Shown here piece after piece: positions 43-6,159 of a stretch of 6,244 nt of DNA. How positions within the stretch are numbered: position 1 is the stretch's first letter; each line of letters opens with the position of its first letter. The stretch is from Actinomycetota bacterium (GTDB lineage Bacteria > Actinomycetota > Humimicrobiia > Humimicrobiales > Humimicrobiaceae). The stretch lies in assembly GCA_016783995.1 (NCBI GenBank), contig JADHVN010000081.1, positions 1 through 6,244 of the forward strand. Reading direction: 5' to 3'. The notes under the pieces were generated by a model. That model did no database searches. It was not told the DNA's origin and worked only from the letters and a program-made list of their open reading frames with translations. Made by a program: the position numbers and the translations under genes.

Positions 43-132
43 CAATTAAACATCAGATATTATTTCTTCCGCTCCTACACACAAATTTTATTCTACCGAT
101 ATCCCTCTAACTCAATTAAACATCGAATATTA
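43..132. repeat. Short direct repeat at and after the archease stop codon
   Basis: The 12-mer CAATTAAACATC occurs at 43-54 and again at 113-124. With the next eight bases the two copies (43-62 and 113-132) agree at about 16-18 of 20 positions. The right copy encodes the conserved Asp-Val-stop end of archease. The left copy, read on the same strand, also ends in Asp-Val-stop but lacks an intact upstream frame. It may be a small local duplication of the gene end. Confidence 0.5.
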
Positions 133-583
133 CCTGCCCCGTCCACCTGCTGCTTGTTTCATCTTTTTTTACTTCTAACATATGATATGTTGGAGCTTTA
201 ATGGCAGTCATTATTTCATGCTTCTTCAAATTAATTTTCTCTCCCAAAATCTCTGCTTCCAGTATTTTTTTATCACATTTTTCATTAATTCTTCTTACTC
301 TAAATTTTGAAAATAACATCTTATCTACTTCATAAATATAAAGTAATTTTTCAAGCCATAGTATTAGTAAATCATCCAACCCAATATTACTCTTTCCCCT
401 TATAATAATATTTTTTTTATCAACCTGGACTATTTTTTGTAAATTACACATGATTGAAAACATTCCACTTGCCGCATTTTCAAATAACTCTTCCAAGTCA
501 TTCCCAAAAAATCTTATACCAATATCTGATGGGTGATCTACCTGTATAAATTTCCTATCTTGATTATTATTAATTTCTCTCAT
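116..583 (-). CDS. Archease family protein (RtcB ligase activator)
   Basis: This 155-residue protein belongs to the archease family, small cytoplasmic metal-binding proteins that help RtcB form its guanylate intermediate and so speed RNA ligation in tRNA splicing or repair. Family marks seen here are the N-terminal DHPSDIGI (residues 16-23, usual form DHTADI), the following helix with LEELFENAASGMF (30-42), the KAPTYHML stretch near residue 129, and the C-terminal VIFDV whose Asp is expected to bind metal. Length is slightly above the usual 140 or so because of a short polar N-terminal leader (MREINNNQDRK). The ATG is chosen because no other start precedes the conserved core; AAGGA lies very close to it. 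The gene is divergent from the hydrogenase operon and precedes a possible rtcB start. The DHPSD variant, with Pro-Ser for Thr-Ala, is mildly unusual. Confidence 0.88.
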   Translation of the reverse strand: MREINNNQDRKFIQVDHPSDIGIRFFGNDLEELFENAASGMFSIMCNLQKIVQVDKKNIIIRGKSNIGLDDLLILWLEKLLYIYEVDKMLFSKFRVRRINEKCDKKILEAEILGEKINLKKHEIMTAIKAPTYHMLEVKKDETSSRWTGQVIFDV

Positions 584-998: not shown

Positions 999-1895
999 AT
1001 GAGCCCAAAAGAAAGTAAAAATGTTATCAAAGTAGTATACATTCAAGGAGCAGGGTGTACCGGATGCGCAACATCTACCTTATGTTCCCAGTATCCTTCT
1101 ATAAAGAATATTTTGCTCCAGGATATCATTCCAGGCCATAAGCTTGATGTTGTTTTTCACCCTGTTATTATGGCAGCTGCTGGTAATTTAGCAGTAGATA
1201 TACTGGATAAAATTTCAAAGGAAAAAGGATATGTTTTAATTGTTGATGGTGCTATTCCTACAAAAGATAATGGGATTTATTGTACTACTGGCGAAAAAGA
1301 TGGTAAAAGTATTACTATGCTTGAAGAACTGCTAAATTTATCACCAAATGCCTTAATGGTAATTGCACTTGGTACATGTGCTGCATTTGGAGGTATCTCA
1401 GCAGCCTCGCCCAATCCTTCTGACTCTTTAAGCGTTGATGACATTTTCCTAAAAAACAATATAAAAACACCTCTCATTAATATACCTGGTTGTCCGCCTC
1501 ATCCTGACTGGTTATTTGGAACAATAGAAGCAGTTTTAACTGATGGACTGGAAAATATTGAGCTGGATGATTTAAAAAGGCCTAAAACCTATTTTGGAAA
1601 ATTAATACACGAAAATTGCCCAAATAGAGCGTATTTTGATGAAGGCAAATTTGCAAAAAAATTTGGAGATGAGGGATGTTTATATGAATTAGGCTGTAAG
1701 GGTTCCATTACATACGCTGATTGCCCTATCCGGCACTGGAATGGAAAAGTTAACTGGGTTATTGGGAGTGGTGCTCCCTGTAATGGATGTACCCAACCAG
1801 AGTATCCTGATTTTGTCGGAGATTTTTACGAAAGAATTATTGATGTAGAAGTACCTGCCAATCAAAGAAAAACTACAATCCAAAATAAAAAATAG
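999..1895 (+). CDS. [NiFe]-hydrogenase small subunit, cytoplasmic type without Tat signal
   Basis: This is the electron-transfer subunit of a [NiFe]-hydrogenase, carrying three Fe-S clusters from the active site to a partner. Ligands seen: proximal [4Fe-4S] Cys20, Cys23 (GAGCTGC), Cys127 (GTCAAFGG) and Cys165 (PGCPPHPDW); distal [4Fe-4S] His204, Cys207, Cys227 and Cys233; medial cluster Cys242, Cys261 and Cys264 (APCNGC). The residue that is usually Pro in [3Fe-4S] enzymes is Val254; with no fourth Cys there, a [3Fe-4S] centre is expected. The sequence resembles group 1 small subunits, yet it begins only 19 residues before the first cluster Cys, with no twin-arginine signal and no C-terminal membrane helix, so it should stay in the cytoplasm. 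AAGGAG (988-993) 5 nt before the ATG fixes the start. The gene leads the operon, 12 nt before the large subunit. The exact hydrogenase subgroup cannot be assigned by eye. Confidence 0.95.
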   Translation: MSPKESKNVIKVVYIQGAGCTGCATSTLCSQYPSIKNILLQDIIPGHKLDVVFHPVIMAAAGNLAVDILDKISKEKGYVLIVDGAIPTKDNGIYCTTGEKDGKSITMLEELLNLSPNALMVIALGTCAAFGGISAASPNPSDSLSVDDIFLKNNIKTPLINIPGCPPHPDWLFGTIEAVLTDGLENIELDDLKRPKTYFGKLIHENCPNRAYFDEGKFAKKFGDEGCLYELGCKGSITYADCPIRHWNGKVNWVIGSGAPCNGCTQPEYPDFVGDFYERIIDVEVPANQRKTTIQNKK

Positions 1896-1907
1896 GAAGG
1901 TGAGAAA

Positions 1908-3458
1908 GTGAAAAAAATAGTCATACATCCAATTACCAGAATAGAAGGACATTTAAAAGTTGAAGCAACCGTTGATAATGGAGAAGTAAAAGATGCCAAT
2001 ATGAGTGGTACTCTTTTTAGGGGAATAGAGACAATATTAAAAGGAAGAGATCCCAGAGATGCAGTAATGATTTCACAGAGAATTTGCGGAGTTTGCCCTG
2101 AACCCCATGCTATAGCTTCTGTATCAGCATTAGAAGATTGCTGCCAGCTTAGTGATAGTATTCCATTAAATGGAATCCTTCTCAGAAATATTATTCAAGG
2201 TACAAGAACCATAGCTGATCATATCTTACATTTTTACATTTTAAGCGGGCTGGACTATGTAGATGTTGCAAAAGCATTGGAATATGAAGGGAAAAATGAA
2301 GATTTAAATATCCTAAAAAATTTTCTTCAGCAGGGTTTCTCAAAACCATTTTTACCAAGAAGTGAAATAGATTTTAAATTTGACAGTAAAACTGCAAGTG
2401 AAGTAGCAGGACACTATTTGAAGGCTTTAGATATCTATAGAAAAGCACAGGAAGCAGCTTCAATCTTTGGTGGTAAGTGGCCTCATGACAGTGCAATTGT
2501 AGGAGGAGGCGTATCTGGTCAAGTAACACAAGATAAAATTTATAATTATTTCTGGAGATTAGATGAGATCATTGGCTTTGTTAAAAATTACTATCTACCT
2601 GATGTAATTGCAGTAGCAAAAGCTTACAGTGAATACCTTGAAATCGGAAAAGGATGTCAGAATCTACTATCATACCCATCATATAAAATGAAATCTGATG
2701 GTACCGCAAGCGGATCTCTCCTTGCAGAAGGAATTGTAAATAACATAGATAAATACAATTCATTAAATATTGAAAAAATTACAGAGGATGTAACCCATAG
2801 CTGGTACGAGGATTCCGAACCTGTAAATCCTAGTGTTGGAATAACAGAACCAAAAGCTAATAAAACTCAGGGTTACTCCTGGATAAAATCTCCAAGATAT
2901 GAAAGTAATGTTTATGAAGTTGGTCCATTAGCATCACTTCTTACAACTTATTTAAGCAAAGATAATCAATTTATAAAAGATACTGTTGACTCTTCACTGT
3001 CAGAGATTAATGGAAAAATCTCAAATCTTTATTCAGTAATGGGAAGACACCTTTCAAGGGCAGTAGTTGCATATATAATAGGTAGTAATCTAAAAAGCTG
3101 GGCTCAGGATATAAAAGTTGGAGAACCTCTTTCAGTAAAATATTCAGCACCAATGGAAGGATCAGGAATTGGTCTTTGTGCAGCACCTCGTGGCGCTCTT
3201 GGCCACTGGCTAAGTGTTAAAGAAGGTAGAATATCAAATTATCAAGTAATAACACCAACAGCATGGAATGCATCCCCAAAAGACAAAGATGGAAATCCAG
3301 GCCCTTATGAACAAGCATTAATCGGGCTAAAGATTAAAGAAAGTGATTGTCCGGTAGAAATACTGAGAGTTATTAGAAGTTTTGATCCATGTACCGCATG
3401 TGCAGTACATTTAATAACACCAAAAGGAAACTTACTTGGAAAATATAGGATTGTTTAA
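1908..3458 (+). CDS. [NiFe]-hydrogenase large (catalytic) subunit
   Basis: This 516-residue subunit holds the Ni-Fe(CN)2(CO) site that splits or makes H2. Both metal-binding motifs are complete: RICGVCPEPHA near the N-terminus (Cys60, Cys63, His67) and DPCTACAVH near the C-terminus (Cys495, Cys498, His501). ITRIEGH (residues 9-15) and the APRGALGHW segment are also typical. After His501 there is a 15-residue tail (LITPKGNLLGKYRIV), the extension that a specific endopeptidase removes once nickel is in place; such a protease is the last gene of the operon. It starts with GTG at 1908, supported by AAGGTGAG (1897-1904). Length is in the range of uptake-type enzymes. No sign of damage. The pairing with MetV and MetF downstream suggests a redox role in one-carbon reduction rather than a respiratory membrane enzyme. 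Confidence 0.96.
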   Translation: MKKIVIHPITRIEGHLKVEATVDNGEVKDANMSGTLFRGIETILKGRDPRDAVMISQRICGVCPEPHAIASVSALEDCCQLSDSIPLNGILLRNIIQGTRTIADHILHFYILSGLDYVDVAKALEYEGKNEDLNILKNFLQQGFSKPFLPRSEIDFKFDSKTASEVAGHYLKALDIYRKAQEAASIFGGKWPHDSAIVGGGVSGQVTQDKIYNYFWRLDEIIGFVKNYYLPDVIAVAKAYSEYLEIGKGCQNLLSYPSYKMKSDGTASGSLLAEGIVNNIDKYNSLNIEKITEDVTHSWYEDSEPVNPSVGITEPKANKTQGYSWIKSPRYESNVYEVGPLASLLTTYLSKDNQFIKDTVDSSLSEINGKISNLYSVMGRHLSRAVVAYIIGSNLKSWAQDIKVGEPLSVKYSAPMEGSGIGLCAAPRGALGHWLSVKEGRISNYQVITPTAWNASPKDKDGNPGPYEQALIGLKIKESDCPVEILRVIRSFDPCTACAVHLITPKGNLLGKYRIV

Positions 3459-3483
3459 TAAAAATTATATTATTTATTTTGTT

Positions 3484-3489
3484 AGGAGG
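3484..3489 (+). promoter_or_regulatory. Ribosome site that fixes the metV start
   Basis: AGGAGG lies 4 nt before the ATG at 3494. A TTG at 3479 in the same frame would also open the gene, but it precedes this site, so translation cannot plausibly start there. The protein is therefore five residues shorter than the longest open frame. Confidence 0.75.
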
Positions 3490-3493
3490 CCTT

Positions 3494-4168
3494 ATGATAT
3501 TAACTGAACAGAAGCCGGTAGAAGAAATACTCGAGAGATTAAATGGTGAAAATAAGATCTTCATTTTAAACTGCGGAGGTTGTCCAGAAGGTGCTGATAC
3601 TGGTGGAATTAAAGTAATAAACAACCTAAAAGAAGAACTTGAAAAAAAGGGAAAGAAAATAACAGGGTCTGTATCAATAGATTTTCTATGTCAGAAAGCA
3701 CTACTGAGGTCAAGGCTGAGAACTAGAAGAAAAGAAATAGAAGAATCTGACTCTATACTGGTTCTATCCTGCGGGCTGGGTGTCCAGACATCAGCTACAG
3801 TCATCAGTAAAATATGTCATCCTGCTTTAAATACAATAACATTTGGTGGTATTACTGGGATGTGGCAGGGAACAGAAAGATGTGCTACATGTGGTGATTG
3901 TGTACTGGATTATACTGGAGGTATCTGCCCCTATACAGCCTGTCCAAAAGAGCTACTAAATTTAGGTTGTGCAGGTCAAAGTAATGGAAAATGTGAAACT
4001 GATCTTGAAAGAGACTGCGGTTGGGAGCTTATATACAATCGTCTTAAATCTATAGGACAACTAGATAAATTGAAGGAATTTATTCCACCTAGAGACTATA
4101 GCAAGATGCTTCCATCAGCTAAATTAAGAAAAACTAATTTATGGGCATTAGATGAGGAGGCAGTATGA
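3494..4168 (+). CDS. metV: MetV, cysteine-rich partner subunit of methylenetetrahydrofolate reductase
   Basis: This 224-residue protein matches the MTHFR C-terminal (MetV) family, the non-flavin partner of MetF in acetogen-type methylene-THF reductases, where it binds metal and is thought to pass electrons to MetF. It has 13 cysteines. Key stretches are NCGGCPEG (Cys27, Cys30), DFLC (Cys66), LSCGLGVQTSA (Cys93), ERCATCGDC (Cys130, 133, 136), TGGICPYTAC (Cys145, 150), GCAGQSNGKC (Cys159, 167) and DCGW (Cys175). The usual LLNGPCGG element is changed to LLNLGCAG, though its cysteine remains. Whether all clusters are Fe-S or one site is zinc cannot be told from sequence. It lies 35 nt after the large subunit and overlaps metF by 4 nt, so the two proteins are probably made in equal amounts. 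Its place directly after the hydrogenase suggests that it receives electrons from the small subunit. Confidence 0.9.
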   Translation: MILTEQKPVEEILERLNGENKIFILNCGGCPEGADTGGIKVINNLKEELEKKGKKITGSVSIDFLCQKALLRSRLRTRRKEIEESDSILVLSCGLGVQTSATVISKICHPALNTITFGGITGMWQGTERCATCGDCVLDYTGGICPYTACPKELLNLGCAGQSNGKCETDLERDCGWELIYNRLKSIGQLDKLKEFIPPRDYSKMLPSAKLRKTNLWALDEEAV

Positions 4169-5094
4169 CCACTGAAACAATAAACAATAATAATTCAACA
4201 AAATTACAATCTAATCTTAAAGACGCAATAGAAAAGAAAAAATTTGCAATAACATGTGAGATTGGTCCGCCTAAAGGCGCAGATGATAAAGAAATAAGAG
4301 AAACAGGAGAAATACTGAGGGGATTGGCAGATGGGATAAACGTTACTGACCTGCAAAGTTCAGTCATGAGACTTGGATCACTAACTACATGTCATATCTT
4401 AAAAGAAATGGGGCTTGACCCTATTTTTCAACTAACCTGTAGAGATAGAAACAGGTTAGCACTTCAATCAGATCTGCTAAGTGCGTATGTTATGGGAATA
4501 AGAAATGTCCTAGCCCTTACCGGTGATTACACAACTACCGGCGATGATCCTCAATCAAAACCTGTATTTGACCTGGATTCTGTTCAGCTTCTCTGGACAA
4601 TTAAGAAGCTTGAAGAAGGTTATGATATAGCAGGAAAAGAACTTACAGTAAAACCTTCTTTCTTTAAGGGTGCAGTTGTAAATCCTGGCGCAGATACTGA
4701 GGCATCTTATGAGCTGCAAATTGCAAAGATGCAGAAAAAAATTGATCAGGGAGCACAATTTTTCCAGACTCAAGCTGTCTTTGATGCTGATGTTTTCGAA
4801 AGATTCATGGAAAGAATTTCAAAAATGAATATGAATGTGCCTGTTCTTATAGGAATCATACTTCTAAAATCACATAAAATGGCTAACTATATGAATAAAT
4901 TTGTTCCTGGCGTATTTGTTCCTGAGCCAATTATAAAAAAGATGGAAGAAACAGAAGATAAGGTATCCATGTGCCTGGAAATTGCCGCTGAACTTATAAA
5001 TAAAGTTAAACCAATTTGTGCAGGGGCACACATCCAAGCACTCGGATGGGAGAGACATGTCCCTACTCTTATAAAAAAACTTGATCTAAGCTAA
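4165..5094 (+). CDS. metF: MetF, 5,10-methylenetetrahydrofolate reductase
   Basis: MetF reduces 5,10-methylene-THF to 5-methyl-THF on a bound flavin in a TIM barrel; in acetogens this is a step of the methyl branch, and elsewhere it feeds methionine synthesis. Seen in its 309 residues: TCEIGPPKG with catalytic-type Glu32, NVTDLQSSVMRLGS (59-72), LTCRDRNR (90-97), ALTGD with Asp121 (position and context match Asp120 of the E. coli enzyme), GAQFFQTQ with Gln203, and the late LLKSHKMANYMN and VPGVFVPE blocks. There is no NAD(P)H-binding add-on domain. The N-terminus has a short Asn-rich stretch (residues 7-10). It starts at 4165 within ATGA, overlapping the metV stop, with GAGGAGG (4154-4160) ahead. 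Its association with MetV and a hydrogenase points to H2-derived electrons rather than NADH as donor; that is inference. Confidence 0.94.
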   Translation: MTTETINNNNSTKLQSNLKDAIEKKKFAITCEIGPPKGADDKEIRETGEILRGLADGINVTDLQSSVMRLGSLTTCHILKEMGLDPIFQLTCRDRNRLALQSDLLSAYVMGIRNVLALTGDYTTTGDDPQSKPVFDLDSVQLLWTIKKLEEGYDIAGKELTVKPSFFKGAVVNPGADTEASYELQIAKMQKKIDQGAQFFQTQAVFDADVFERFMERISKMNMNVPVLIGIILLKSHKMANYMNKFVPGVFVPEPIIKKMEETEDKVSMCLEIAAELINKVKPICAGAHIQALGWERHVPTLIKKLDLS

Positions 5095-5637
5095 ATGACA
5101 AAACCAGCAGACATTAAAACTGTTATCCTCGGTATCGGTAATATACTCCTGGGAGACGAAGGTATAGGAATTCATGTTATAAAAAGAATAAAAAAAATAA
5201 CTCTTGCAGATAGTGTTGAAGTAATTGACGGAGCAACTGCTGGTTTTGGACTACTCCCAATTTTTAAAACCTATCAAAACAGTAAATTTATAATTGTTGA
5301 TGCATTAAAGGTATCTTCTCCTGACAATCAAAACAATAAATCAGAAAACATAGGATACGAAAAAGGAGGTATCTATAAAATCCCCTTAACTGATATCTAC
5401 GACCTTTGTAGTTCCAATTACCTAAAATATGGCTTTACATCTCTTCATCAAACTGGACTTATTGATGTCTTGAGCTTATTCCATGCTACTTATAAAACTA
5501 AAATTACAGGATATATAATCGGAGTCAATATCTTTGATAGCAAAAAAGACAGCGCCGTCTCATTTTCAATGAATTTATCACCCCAAATAGAAAAGAAAGT
5601 CCCAGAAATTATAAAAATTGTAAAAAAACTAATATAA
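5095..5637 (+). CDS. [NiFe]-hydrogenase maturation endopeptidase (HycI/HybD family)
   Basis: This 180-residue protease removes the C-terminal tail of the hydrogenase large subunit after nickel insertion. The family's nickel-probing residues are present: Glu22 in GIGNILLGDEGIG, Asp69 in FIIVDALK, and His118 in SLHQTGL, corresponding to Glu16, Asp62 and His93 of HybD. VIDGATAGFGLLP (43-55) is also typical. The start codon directly abuts the metF stop (TAAATG) and no ribosome site is evident, so translation probably restarts after metF, giving low-level output suited to a maturation factor. Its likely substrate is the large subunit at 1908-3458, whose tail begins after His501. A loop around residues 74-90 is Asn/Lys-rich and looks like an insertion. 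The pleiotropic hyp maturation genes are not in the window. Confidence 0.93.
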   Translation: MTKPADIKTVILGIGNILLGDEGIGIHVIKRIKKITLADSVEVIDGATAGFGLLPIFKTYQNSKFIIVDALKVSSPDNQNNKSENIGYEKGGIYKIPLTDIYDLCSSNYLKYGFTSLHQTGLIDVLSLFHATYKTKITGYIIGVNIFDSKKDSAVSFSMNLSPQIEKKVPEIIKIVKKLI

Positions 5638-5642
5638 AATCA

Positions 5643-5855
5643 TTAATCAATTGTTACTCTTTCCCAATCATCGTTTATTTTCTTATCCTCATTTCTTGTT
5701 GCTTTGTATCCTTCTATTAAAAGGCTGTCTAATTCTTTCTTTTTTATCATTTCTATTTTTTCTTTCAATGCAGCTGCAATAAATTGACTTTTATTAGGAA
5801 TATCTTCTATTTCTTTGATTATTTCATCAGGTATAGTAACATTTAACCTCTTCAT
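5643..5855 (-). CDS. Ribbon-helix-helix antitoxin-like protein
   Basis: This 70-residue protein begins KRLNVTIPDEIIKEIE, the strand-then-helix pattern of ribbon-helix-helix (CopG/MazE-like) DNA-binding proteins, followed by NKSQFIAAALKEKI as the second helix. The rest is a charged tail (EGYKATRNEDKK...DDWERV) like the toxin-binding tails of small type II antitoxins. A GTG at 5864 lies inside the ribosome site GAGGTGG (5867-5861), so the ATG at 5855 is the better start, with 5-nt spacing. It converges with the hydrogenase protease gene with only 5 nt between stop codons. No toxin gene follows it, so it is either an orphan antitoxin or an autonomous small regulator. Confidence 0.75.
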   Translation of the reverse strand: MKRLNVTIPDEIIKEIEDIPNKSQFIAAALKEKIEMIKKKELDSLLIEGYKATRNEDKKINDDWERVTID

Positions 5856-5860
5856 GCTTA

Positions 5861-5867
5861 CCACCTC
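5861..5867 (-). promoter_or_regulatory. Ribosome site that fixes the RHH gene start
   Basis: GAGGTGG on the minus strand (5867-5861) lies 5 nt before ATG 5855. It contains the in-frame GTG at 5864-5862, which therefore cannot be the real start and would add three residues wrongly. Confidence 0.7.
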
Positions 5868-5922: not shown

Positions 5923-6159
5923 TCACTTAATTGTAACAAGTGGTTTAGTAATCTCTCCTGATAGCCAGGCAGCATATTGAATTGCTTGTAATATATCATC
6001 TTTCTCAAGCTCCGGATAAGCAGCCAATACTTCTTCACAGGTCATCCCAGAACCTAACAGTTTTAAAATGAATGATACAGTAATTCTCATTCCTCTTATT
6101 GTAGCTTGCCCCATACAAACATTAGGATCAATCGTAATTCTATCTAATTTCTTAACCAT
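5923..6159 (-). CDS. DUF433 family protein, VapB-type antitoxin-like
   Basis: This 78-residue protein fits the DUF433 family: DRITIDPNVCMGQATIRGMRIT at the start, then a winged-helix-like region with LLGSGMTCEEVLAAYPELEKDDILQAIQYAA. These small proteins often sit beside a PIN-like (DUF5615) toxin gene and are viewed as antitoxins with DNA-binding ability. Here the next gene downstream is a ribbon-helix-helix protein, not a toxin. The ATG at 6159 is preceded only by a purine-rich AAGAAG stretch, so the ribosome site is weak. The gene begins about 20 nt after the likely end of an IS200/IS605 element, which may have cut it off from its original promoter or partner. Confidence 0.8.
   Translation of the reverse strand: MVKKLDRITIDPNVCMGQATIRGMRITVSFILKLLGSGMTCEEVLAAYPELEKDDILQAIQYAAWLSGEITKPLVTIK

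Follow-up and report, generated by a model that had tools for sequence, protein, structure and literature searches.

Which electron donor the MetVF reductases of acetogens use in vivo is still debated (PMC8760232). Four kinds of methylene-THF reductase (MTHFR) have been distinguished in acetogens, namely MetF, MetVF, MetVF-RnfC2 and MetVF-HdrCBA-MvhD, and none of them, as far as the consulted parts of these accounts go, carries a catalytic hydrogenase (PMC8760232, PMC9430772). A stretch of 6,244 nucleotides from an Actinomycetota bacterium, hereafter the window, raises the question of whether a hydrogenase could itself be the donor: there, the genes of both subunits of a [NiFe]-hydrogenase directly precede those of MetV and MetF.

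The initial annotation of the window described five genes on one strand with hardly any space between them, a layout with which the open reading frames (ORFs), their Pfam and NCBIfam matches (for MetV, a Pfam match only) and all the junctions agree (Table 1). Successive genes are separated by 12 nt and 35 nt, share a 4-nt overlap (MetV/MetF) and finally abut with 0 nt between them. The window MetV scores 104 bits against PF12225 (cut-off 23) and the window MetF 138 bits against PF02219 (cut-off 24). For MetV, the most likely start is the tabulated ATG, which has AGGAGG in front; the ORF list has an upstream TTG at 3479, and all 50 aligned MetVs have the methionine of this ATG (M6 of the long reading). 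The neighbours on the opposite strand are an Archease gene with no known link with the operon, a DUF433 gene, and a small ORF that we take to resemble a ribbon-helix-helix antitoxin.

Table 1. Features of the window, with positions counted from its first nucleotide.
Feature	Position	Strand	Remarks
Archease	116-583	-	PF01951
[NiFe]-hydrogenase small subunit	999..1895	+	298 aa; PF01058 and PF14720; ligands of three Fe-S clusters; short tail
[NiFe]-hydrogenase large subunit	1908..3458	+	516 aa; GTG start; PF00374; nickel motifs RICGVC and DPCTACAVH
MetV	3494..4168	+	PF12225; ATG start; hydrogenase-linked subfamily; clade-specific Trp (W129 counted from TTG)
MetF, methylene-THF reductase domain	4165..5094	+	309 aa; PF02219
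Hydrogenase large-subunit maturation protease	5095..5637	+	180 aa; PF01750, TIGR00072
Small ORF	5646-5864	-	no Pfam match
DUF433 protein	5926-6159	-	

The initial annotation named confinement of this order to a single genome as a refutation of its reading; the order is not so confined. From a scan by small-subunit alignment, with one genome per species, the best 80 of 433 confirmed relatives were taken; 65 of them have the large subunit and then MetV, nine contigs end before this can be seen, and six differ (one of these, L061, on a contig that ends 1.1 kb past the small subunit). The operon is thus a real, old and well-conserved module and not a product of chance, because 65 of the 71 judgeable loci among these best 80 have MetV behind the large subunit. 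MetF lies within 2.5 kb downstream in 53 of the 65 linked loci, which carry 13 phylum-level labels; these labels come from record titles, those of metagenome-assembled genomes (MAGs) can be wrong, and two records are titled only 'bacterium'. They comprise Actinomycetota, Chloroflexota, Aerophobetes, delta-proteobacterial groups, Planctomycetota, Nitrospirota, Bipolaricaulota, Bacillota, Omnitrophota, Caldisericota, Poribacteria, Armatimonadota and one Vermiphilus MAG. The protease gene shifts its position, either between the large subunit and MetV or past MetF, while the adjacency of large subunit and MetV stays constant, and no subunit fusions occur among the ORFs of the 80 loci. A near relative of the window (L015, from the Actinomycetes MAG CSMAG_2143) covers part of the small subunit and shows 99% identity there, and other near relatives are named Ca. 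Humimicrobiaceae and Actinobacteria.

The hydrogenase itself belongs to a familiar family. Its small subunit reaches 228 bits against TIGR00391 (cut-off 179.5), as expected of a group 1 [NiFe]-hydrogenase core, and the nickel-binding cysteines of motifs L1 and L2 are present in all 66 linked large subunits, the window included. The window large subunit has a 15-residue C-terminal extension for maturation, a tail found in 55 of the 64 linked large subunits that match the full L2 pattern. A [NiFeSe] enzyme is not indicated in the window, where L2 reads DPCTACAVH, with cysteine and no selenocysteine, and the scores stay well below the cut-offs of NF045520 (288 against 470 bits) and NF045518 (451 against 780 bits), although the large-subunit model NF033181 (NiFeSe_hydrog) was missed narrowly (598.6 against 600 bits). 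At the fourth ligand position of the medial cluster, which is cysteine in NiFeSe enzymes, the window has valine, and therefore its medial cluster is likely a 3Fe cluster; across 65 linked small subunits, window included, this position holds Cys in 41, Val in 20 and other residues in four.

Compared with the Desulfovibrio-type group 1a [NiFe]/[NiFeSe] hydrogenases, the window enzyme has the same subunit families, active-site motifs and three-cluster small subunit, but it has a short tail, cysteine in place of selenocysteine and no Tat leader, and MetVF replaces the membrane partner as neighbour. The leader is absent from the window small subunit and from the linked loci with a readable N terminus; in L018, L028, L039 and L077 a chance RR precedes the likely start, without a hydrophobic stretch. 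In contrast, all six non-linked loci (L061, L065, L066, L075, L079 and L080) have twin-arginine leaders. In L065 the next genes, Fer4_11 and NrfD, form a respiratory set of the periplasmic type; members of these two groups also occur in L075 and L080. The tail past the medial motif has a median of 29 residues in 54 scored linked small subunits, none of them above 1.6 on the Kyte-Doolittle scale, versus 66-72 residues in the four scored Tat-type subunits, whose hydropathies of 1.58-1.70 make the hydropathy cut alone a weak one. Since neither a Tat leader nor a membrane tail or partner gene is found among the window ORFs, the window enzyme lacks the marks of a group 1a respiratory periplasmic hydrogenase, and the linked hydrogenases appear, from their predicted proteins, to be cytoplasmic despite their group 1a-like similarity. 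As for the history of the leader, the small-subunit tree does not support a single Tat loss: the Tat rows do not fall on one clean side, three Tat changes were counted, two miscalled rows included, and L079 meets L062 on long branches.

Surveys of additional genomes separated close from distant small subunits. In the class of G014 (Dehalococcoidales), surveyed in 148 genomes, 34 small-subunit profile matches occurred in 29 genomes and all but that of G014 were examined (33). Of the 13 matches with at least 480 bits, 12 sit beside MetV and one lies on a contig that ends within the large subunit, versus none beside MetV among the 20 matches below 450 bits, 16 of which have a readable twin-arginine leader. 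The phylum of G006 (297 genomes) gave 19 matches in 17 genomes, and 17 of these matches were examined (all but those of G006 and G009): all ten with at least 474 bits have MetV-MetF, and the seven below 385 bits have twin-arginine leaders and no MetV, the contigs of L180, L181 and L182 being too short to judge. Taken together, 22 of 22 testable close small subunits in both surveys lie beside MetV (nine repeat the first set and 13 are new operons). The phylum of G015 (299 genomes, 69 with matches) was represented by 16 rows picked for short frames or top score, of which one (L150) is linked and Tat-less and 15 are unlinked; distant small subunits are thereby linked in one of 43 cases over the three surveys, with four contigs too short (L158, L180, L181, L182). 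A separate group, L151-L158, L160, L161 and L163, consists of Tat-less small subunits in which the second proximal cysteine is replaced (CSGN, CGGN, CSGD, etc.), and no MetV was seen beside them (the contig of L158 is too short).

The linked MetVs are a lineage of their own. In a tree of 87 MetVs, with relatives picked by the small-subunit search as in all the MetV trees and residue comparisons here, the 64 linked sequences (window included) fall on one side of a single branch (UFBoot 100, SH-aLRT 99), which was recovered in 200 of 200 bootstrap trees, and 21 unlinked plus two second-in-operon MetVs fall on the other. An enlarged tree still sets 77 linked against 27 other MetVs by one branch (SH-aLRT 98), and the unlinked MetVs from operon-carrying genomes are placed on the other side (the partial L114 was left out). 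Both sides share the same cysteine set. They differ at W129, where each of the 77 linked rows (72 of them different) and none of the 27 others has Trp, and near the N-terminal cysteines at G34, D68 and L75 (77, 76 and 76 of 77 linked versus 6, 2 and 2 of 27 others). Some Dehalococcoidia carry a second MetV within the hydrogenase operon (L038:4535-5266, L063:3701-4564 and L048:13618-14349); those of L038 and L063 are the two on the unlinked side of the tree, and that of L048 is split in two pieces. An unlinked MetV with an in-frame TGA was also observed in a Desulfobacteraceae MAG genome (L110).

On the hydrogenase side, 77 linked small subunits (five repeats) were compared with 17 unlinked ones, mostly from Dehalococcoidia, and a residue was taken as typical of linkage when present in at least 80% of linked and at most 30% of unlinked rows. 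Twelve positions qualify, two of which (Q41 and R279) are not shared by the window, and five (205, 211, 212, 215 and 217) lie within the loop of the distal cluster, whose ligands would by homology be H204, C207, C227 and C233, and which is presumably the electron exit. Divergence over 49 loci plus the window correlates between small subunit and MetV (0.75) and between MetV and MetF (0.74), less so between small subunit and MetF (0.43), and none of 1000 permutations reached the observed values; the pattern suggests a chain with MetV in the middle, as expected for a bridge, although shared ancestry also feeds such correlations. Direct wiring is thus supported, at the level of sequence comparison, by where the genes lie, by the cytoplasmic location, by co-divergence and by residues that are typical of the clade where electrons are expected to leave. 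The earlier interpretation is partly borne out: the conserved order across 13 phylum-level labels (in the best 80 of 433) and the separate clade of linked MetVs speak for it, and the direct wiring itself stands as a candidate.

Our preferred reading of the operon, with a probability of about 0.74, is an H2:methylene-THF oxidoreductase, HydS-HydL-MetV-MetF, that is soluble and cytoplasmic and comes with its own maturation protease; it would be a fifth MetVF-type reductase. We infer a physical complex with MetV as the bridge, and likewise the path and direction of the electrons. H2 would be split at the NiFe site, the electrons would leave singly by way of the small-subunit clusters (proximal, medial, then distal), and MetV, docked where the distal cluster faces outwards, would take them up on its Fe-S clusters and reduce the MetF flavin, where methylene-THF would become methyl-THF and feed the methyl branch of the Wood-Ljungdahl pathway.

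The thermodynamic fit of H2 oxidation and methylene-THF reduction, already claimed in the initial annotation, holds in a hand calculation: with reported potentials of -414 mV for H2 (PMC8760232) and -200 mV for methylene-THF (PMC9430772), the reaction is downhill by about -41 kJ/mol. The complex could also be imagined to run in reverse, with methyl-THF being oxidised and the electrons vented as H2, as would suit syntrophic oxidisers of acetate or methyl groups. Hydrogenases are reversible and the Wood-Ljungdahl pathway is reversed in syntrophic acetate oxidisers, both of which count in favour of this direction; nevertheless, it would cost about +41 kJ/mol at standard conditions, and with methyl- and methylene-THF equal, H2 has to fall below roughly 0.01 Pa before the couple inverts (Nernst, hand calculation), which leaves it very improbable. 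In the forward direction, this step would conserve energy only if the electrons were also split. A bifurcating version, in which the 40 kJ/mol drop is put to use and methylene-THF reduction at the MetF flavin drives the H2-dependent reduction of ferredoxin and the ferredoxin electrons exit via the changed N-terminal metal site of MetV, seems to us rather improbable too; if true, a soluble four-subunit enzyme would provide a main step of energy conservation in uncultured acetogens with 13 phylum-level labels.

A simpler competitor of the direct H2:methylene-THF oxidoreductase is that of two separate enzymes sharing one operon, where a soluble ferredoxin or flavodoxin would carry electrons from the hydrogenase to MetVF. 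At low H2 pressure, the transfer from H2 to ferredoxin is uphill and methylene-THF reduction is not, which counts against such a shuttle. The gaps in the window are also too small for a ferredoxin gene, no conserved ferredoxin-like family appears among the clustered neighbouring ORFs (at least 90 aa, so that smaller ferredoxins elsewhere are possible), and a free MetVF would have no need of a separate MetV clade and its fixed residues, or of an altered loop at the distal cluster. The shuttle gains some plausibility from purified acetogen MetVFs, which accept reduced ferredoxin in vitro (PMC8760232, PMC9430772), and from MetF genes that sit apart from the hydrogenase-MetV genes (L058 and L064). 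All in all, we regard the two-enzyme arrangement as unlikely. Against the proposed complex counts the Sporomusa MetVF, which did not co-purify with its Hdr neighbours, although pull-downs did show contacts (PMC9430772). So do L058, L059 and L064, where the linked MetV has no MetF after it; in L058 and L064 the hydrogenase and MetV genes are followed by a hypF-group gene, and the sole MTHFR found in the genome of L064 is on another contig.

The metabolic setting was surveyed in 28 genomes (23 linked and five Tat-type), for which completeness figures are absent and absences accordingly weigh little. CdhC of CODH/ACS was found in 16 of the 23 linked genomes versus none of the five Tat-type ones, and not found in the other seven linked genomes; FTHFS in 20 of 23 (a fragment in G001) versus two of five; and MetV in 23 of 23, which were chosen so, versus none of five. 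The linked MetV is the sole MetV found in nine of the 23 (G003, G007, G010, G013, G017, G019, G020, G022 and G023), and the linked MetF the sole MTHFR found in seven (G003, G010, G013, G019, G020, G022 and G023), four of which have CdhC. Further MetVs occur in 14 of the 23, and the genome of L015, from the species of the window, has a second MetV and three MTHFRs; these additional copies, and the linked genomes where CdhC was not found, weigh against the proposed enzyme, as the sole copies and the 16 genomes with CdhC weigh for it.

Genes around the operon were sorted into groups, one member of each being identified by Pfam, with ORFs below 90 aa left unclustered. In favour of the proposed enzyme, FTHFS-group and FolD-group genes flank the operon in L035 and L041, and GTP cyclohydrolase I-group and FolD-group genes in L045, L046 and L056; FTHFS and a FolD-group gene do so in G013, the single-contig Bipolaricaulota chromosome of L047. 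In L017, L024, L029, L045, L046, L056 and L060, genes of the histidine-kinase and single-domain response-regulator groups (L046 providing the identified members) are placed behind or between the MetV and MetF genes, hinting at signal control of the operon. Ahead of the operon in L007, L008 and L010-L014 lies a gene of an HdrD-like group, whose member in L012 was identified as CCG plus Fer4; in L008, L011, L012 and L014 this gene is itself preceded by one for an EtfA-like protein with a ferredoxin domain.

These last neighbours bear on the idea that HydSL-MetVF is the core of a larger, possibly bifurcating complex with lineage-specific HdrA, HdrD or Etf partners. The seven loci with HdrD-like genes, four with the EtfA-like gene, are from Dehalococcoidales/Dehalococcoidia, HdrA-FlpD-like group genes lie near some other operons, and type IV reductases already couple MetVF to Hdr (PMC8760232). 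But the Hdr and Etf neighbours vary by lineage, none is within the window, and in L045 and L046 the HdrA-FlpD-like gene adjoins a second, unlinked MetVF, all of which makes us give this larger assembly very little credence.

How does the proposed four-subunit reductase relate to what is known? The type II enzymes, such as that of Clostridium ljungdahlii, consist of MetV and MetF like the window pair, and linked and unlinked MetVs have their cysteine set in common (the C. ljungdahlii protein itself being outside this comparison), but their cluster is described without a hydrogenase and their donor is debated, ferredoxin serving in vitro (PMC8760232). Type III, MetVF-RnfC2 of Acetobacterium woodii, joins a MetVF core to a dedicated electron-input subunit, as here, with the difference that its input is the NADH-oxidising RnfC2 and that of the window a hydrogenase; no RnfC2 gene occurs among the window ORFs, which are thus not of type III. 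Type IV, HdrCBA-MvhD-MetVF of Moorella, Sporomusa and a Hakuba actinobacterium, adds by gene order a redox module to the MetVF core, again as here, but the clusters as presented contain MvhD and Hdr and no catalytic hydrogenase subunits (PMC9430772, PMC7325909), and neither hdrCBA nor mvhD is found among the window ORFs, so that type IV does not apply either. Judging from these gene sets, the operon is likely a MetVF reductase variant with a hydrogenase as dedicated donor.

Other precedents are partial. Sporomusa membranes reduce methylene-THF with H2 through a periplasmic, cytochrome-linked hydrogenase (PMC9430772), clostridial acetogens have Tat-less group 1a hydrogenases, with no MetVF link in the portion of that report we cite (PMC9431212), and a neighbourhood of formate dehydrogenase, NuoEF and MetVF is a possible analogue (PMC5080403). 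The claim that no enzyme of this make-up has been characterised stands for the literature searched, mostly open-access and without bioRxiv, and earlier notices of the hydrogenase-MetVF link may exist. The neighbourhood as such is, however, already in print: a 2024 paper on Great Salt Lake MAGs gives one sentence to HysAB adjoining MetVF in two OTUs of Ca. Bipolaricaulia and proposes that the hydrogenase may supply the reductase with electrons (PMC11287216). That passage concerns one lineage, labels the hydrogenase group 1a, and gives, in the part consulted, no family, localisation, phylogeny or residue analysis.

For the acetogen field, a likely dedicated donor of MetVF would thus be readable from the gene order and conserved among deep lineages. 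Metagenomic hydrogenases read as 'group 1a respiratory, periplasmic' (as in PMC11287216) would need rereading as apparently cytoplasmic enzymes tied to CO2 fixation. A direct link would turn H2 uptake and methyl synthesis into one step that dispenses with NADH and ferredoxin and works at low H2, which would be useful in deep sediments and aquifers. If the candidate enzyme is true, hydrogen would feed straight into carbon fixation in uncultured bacteria.
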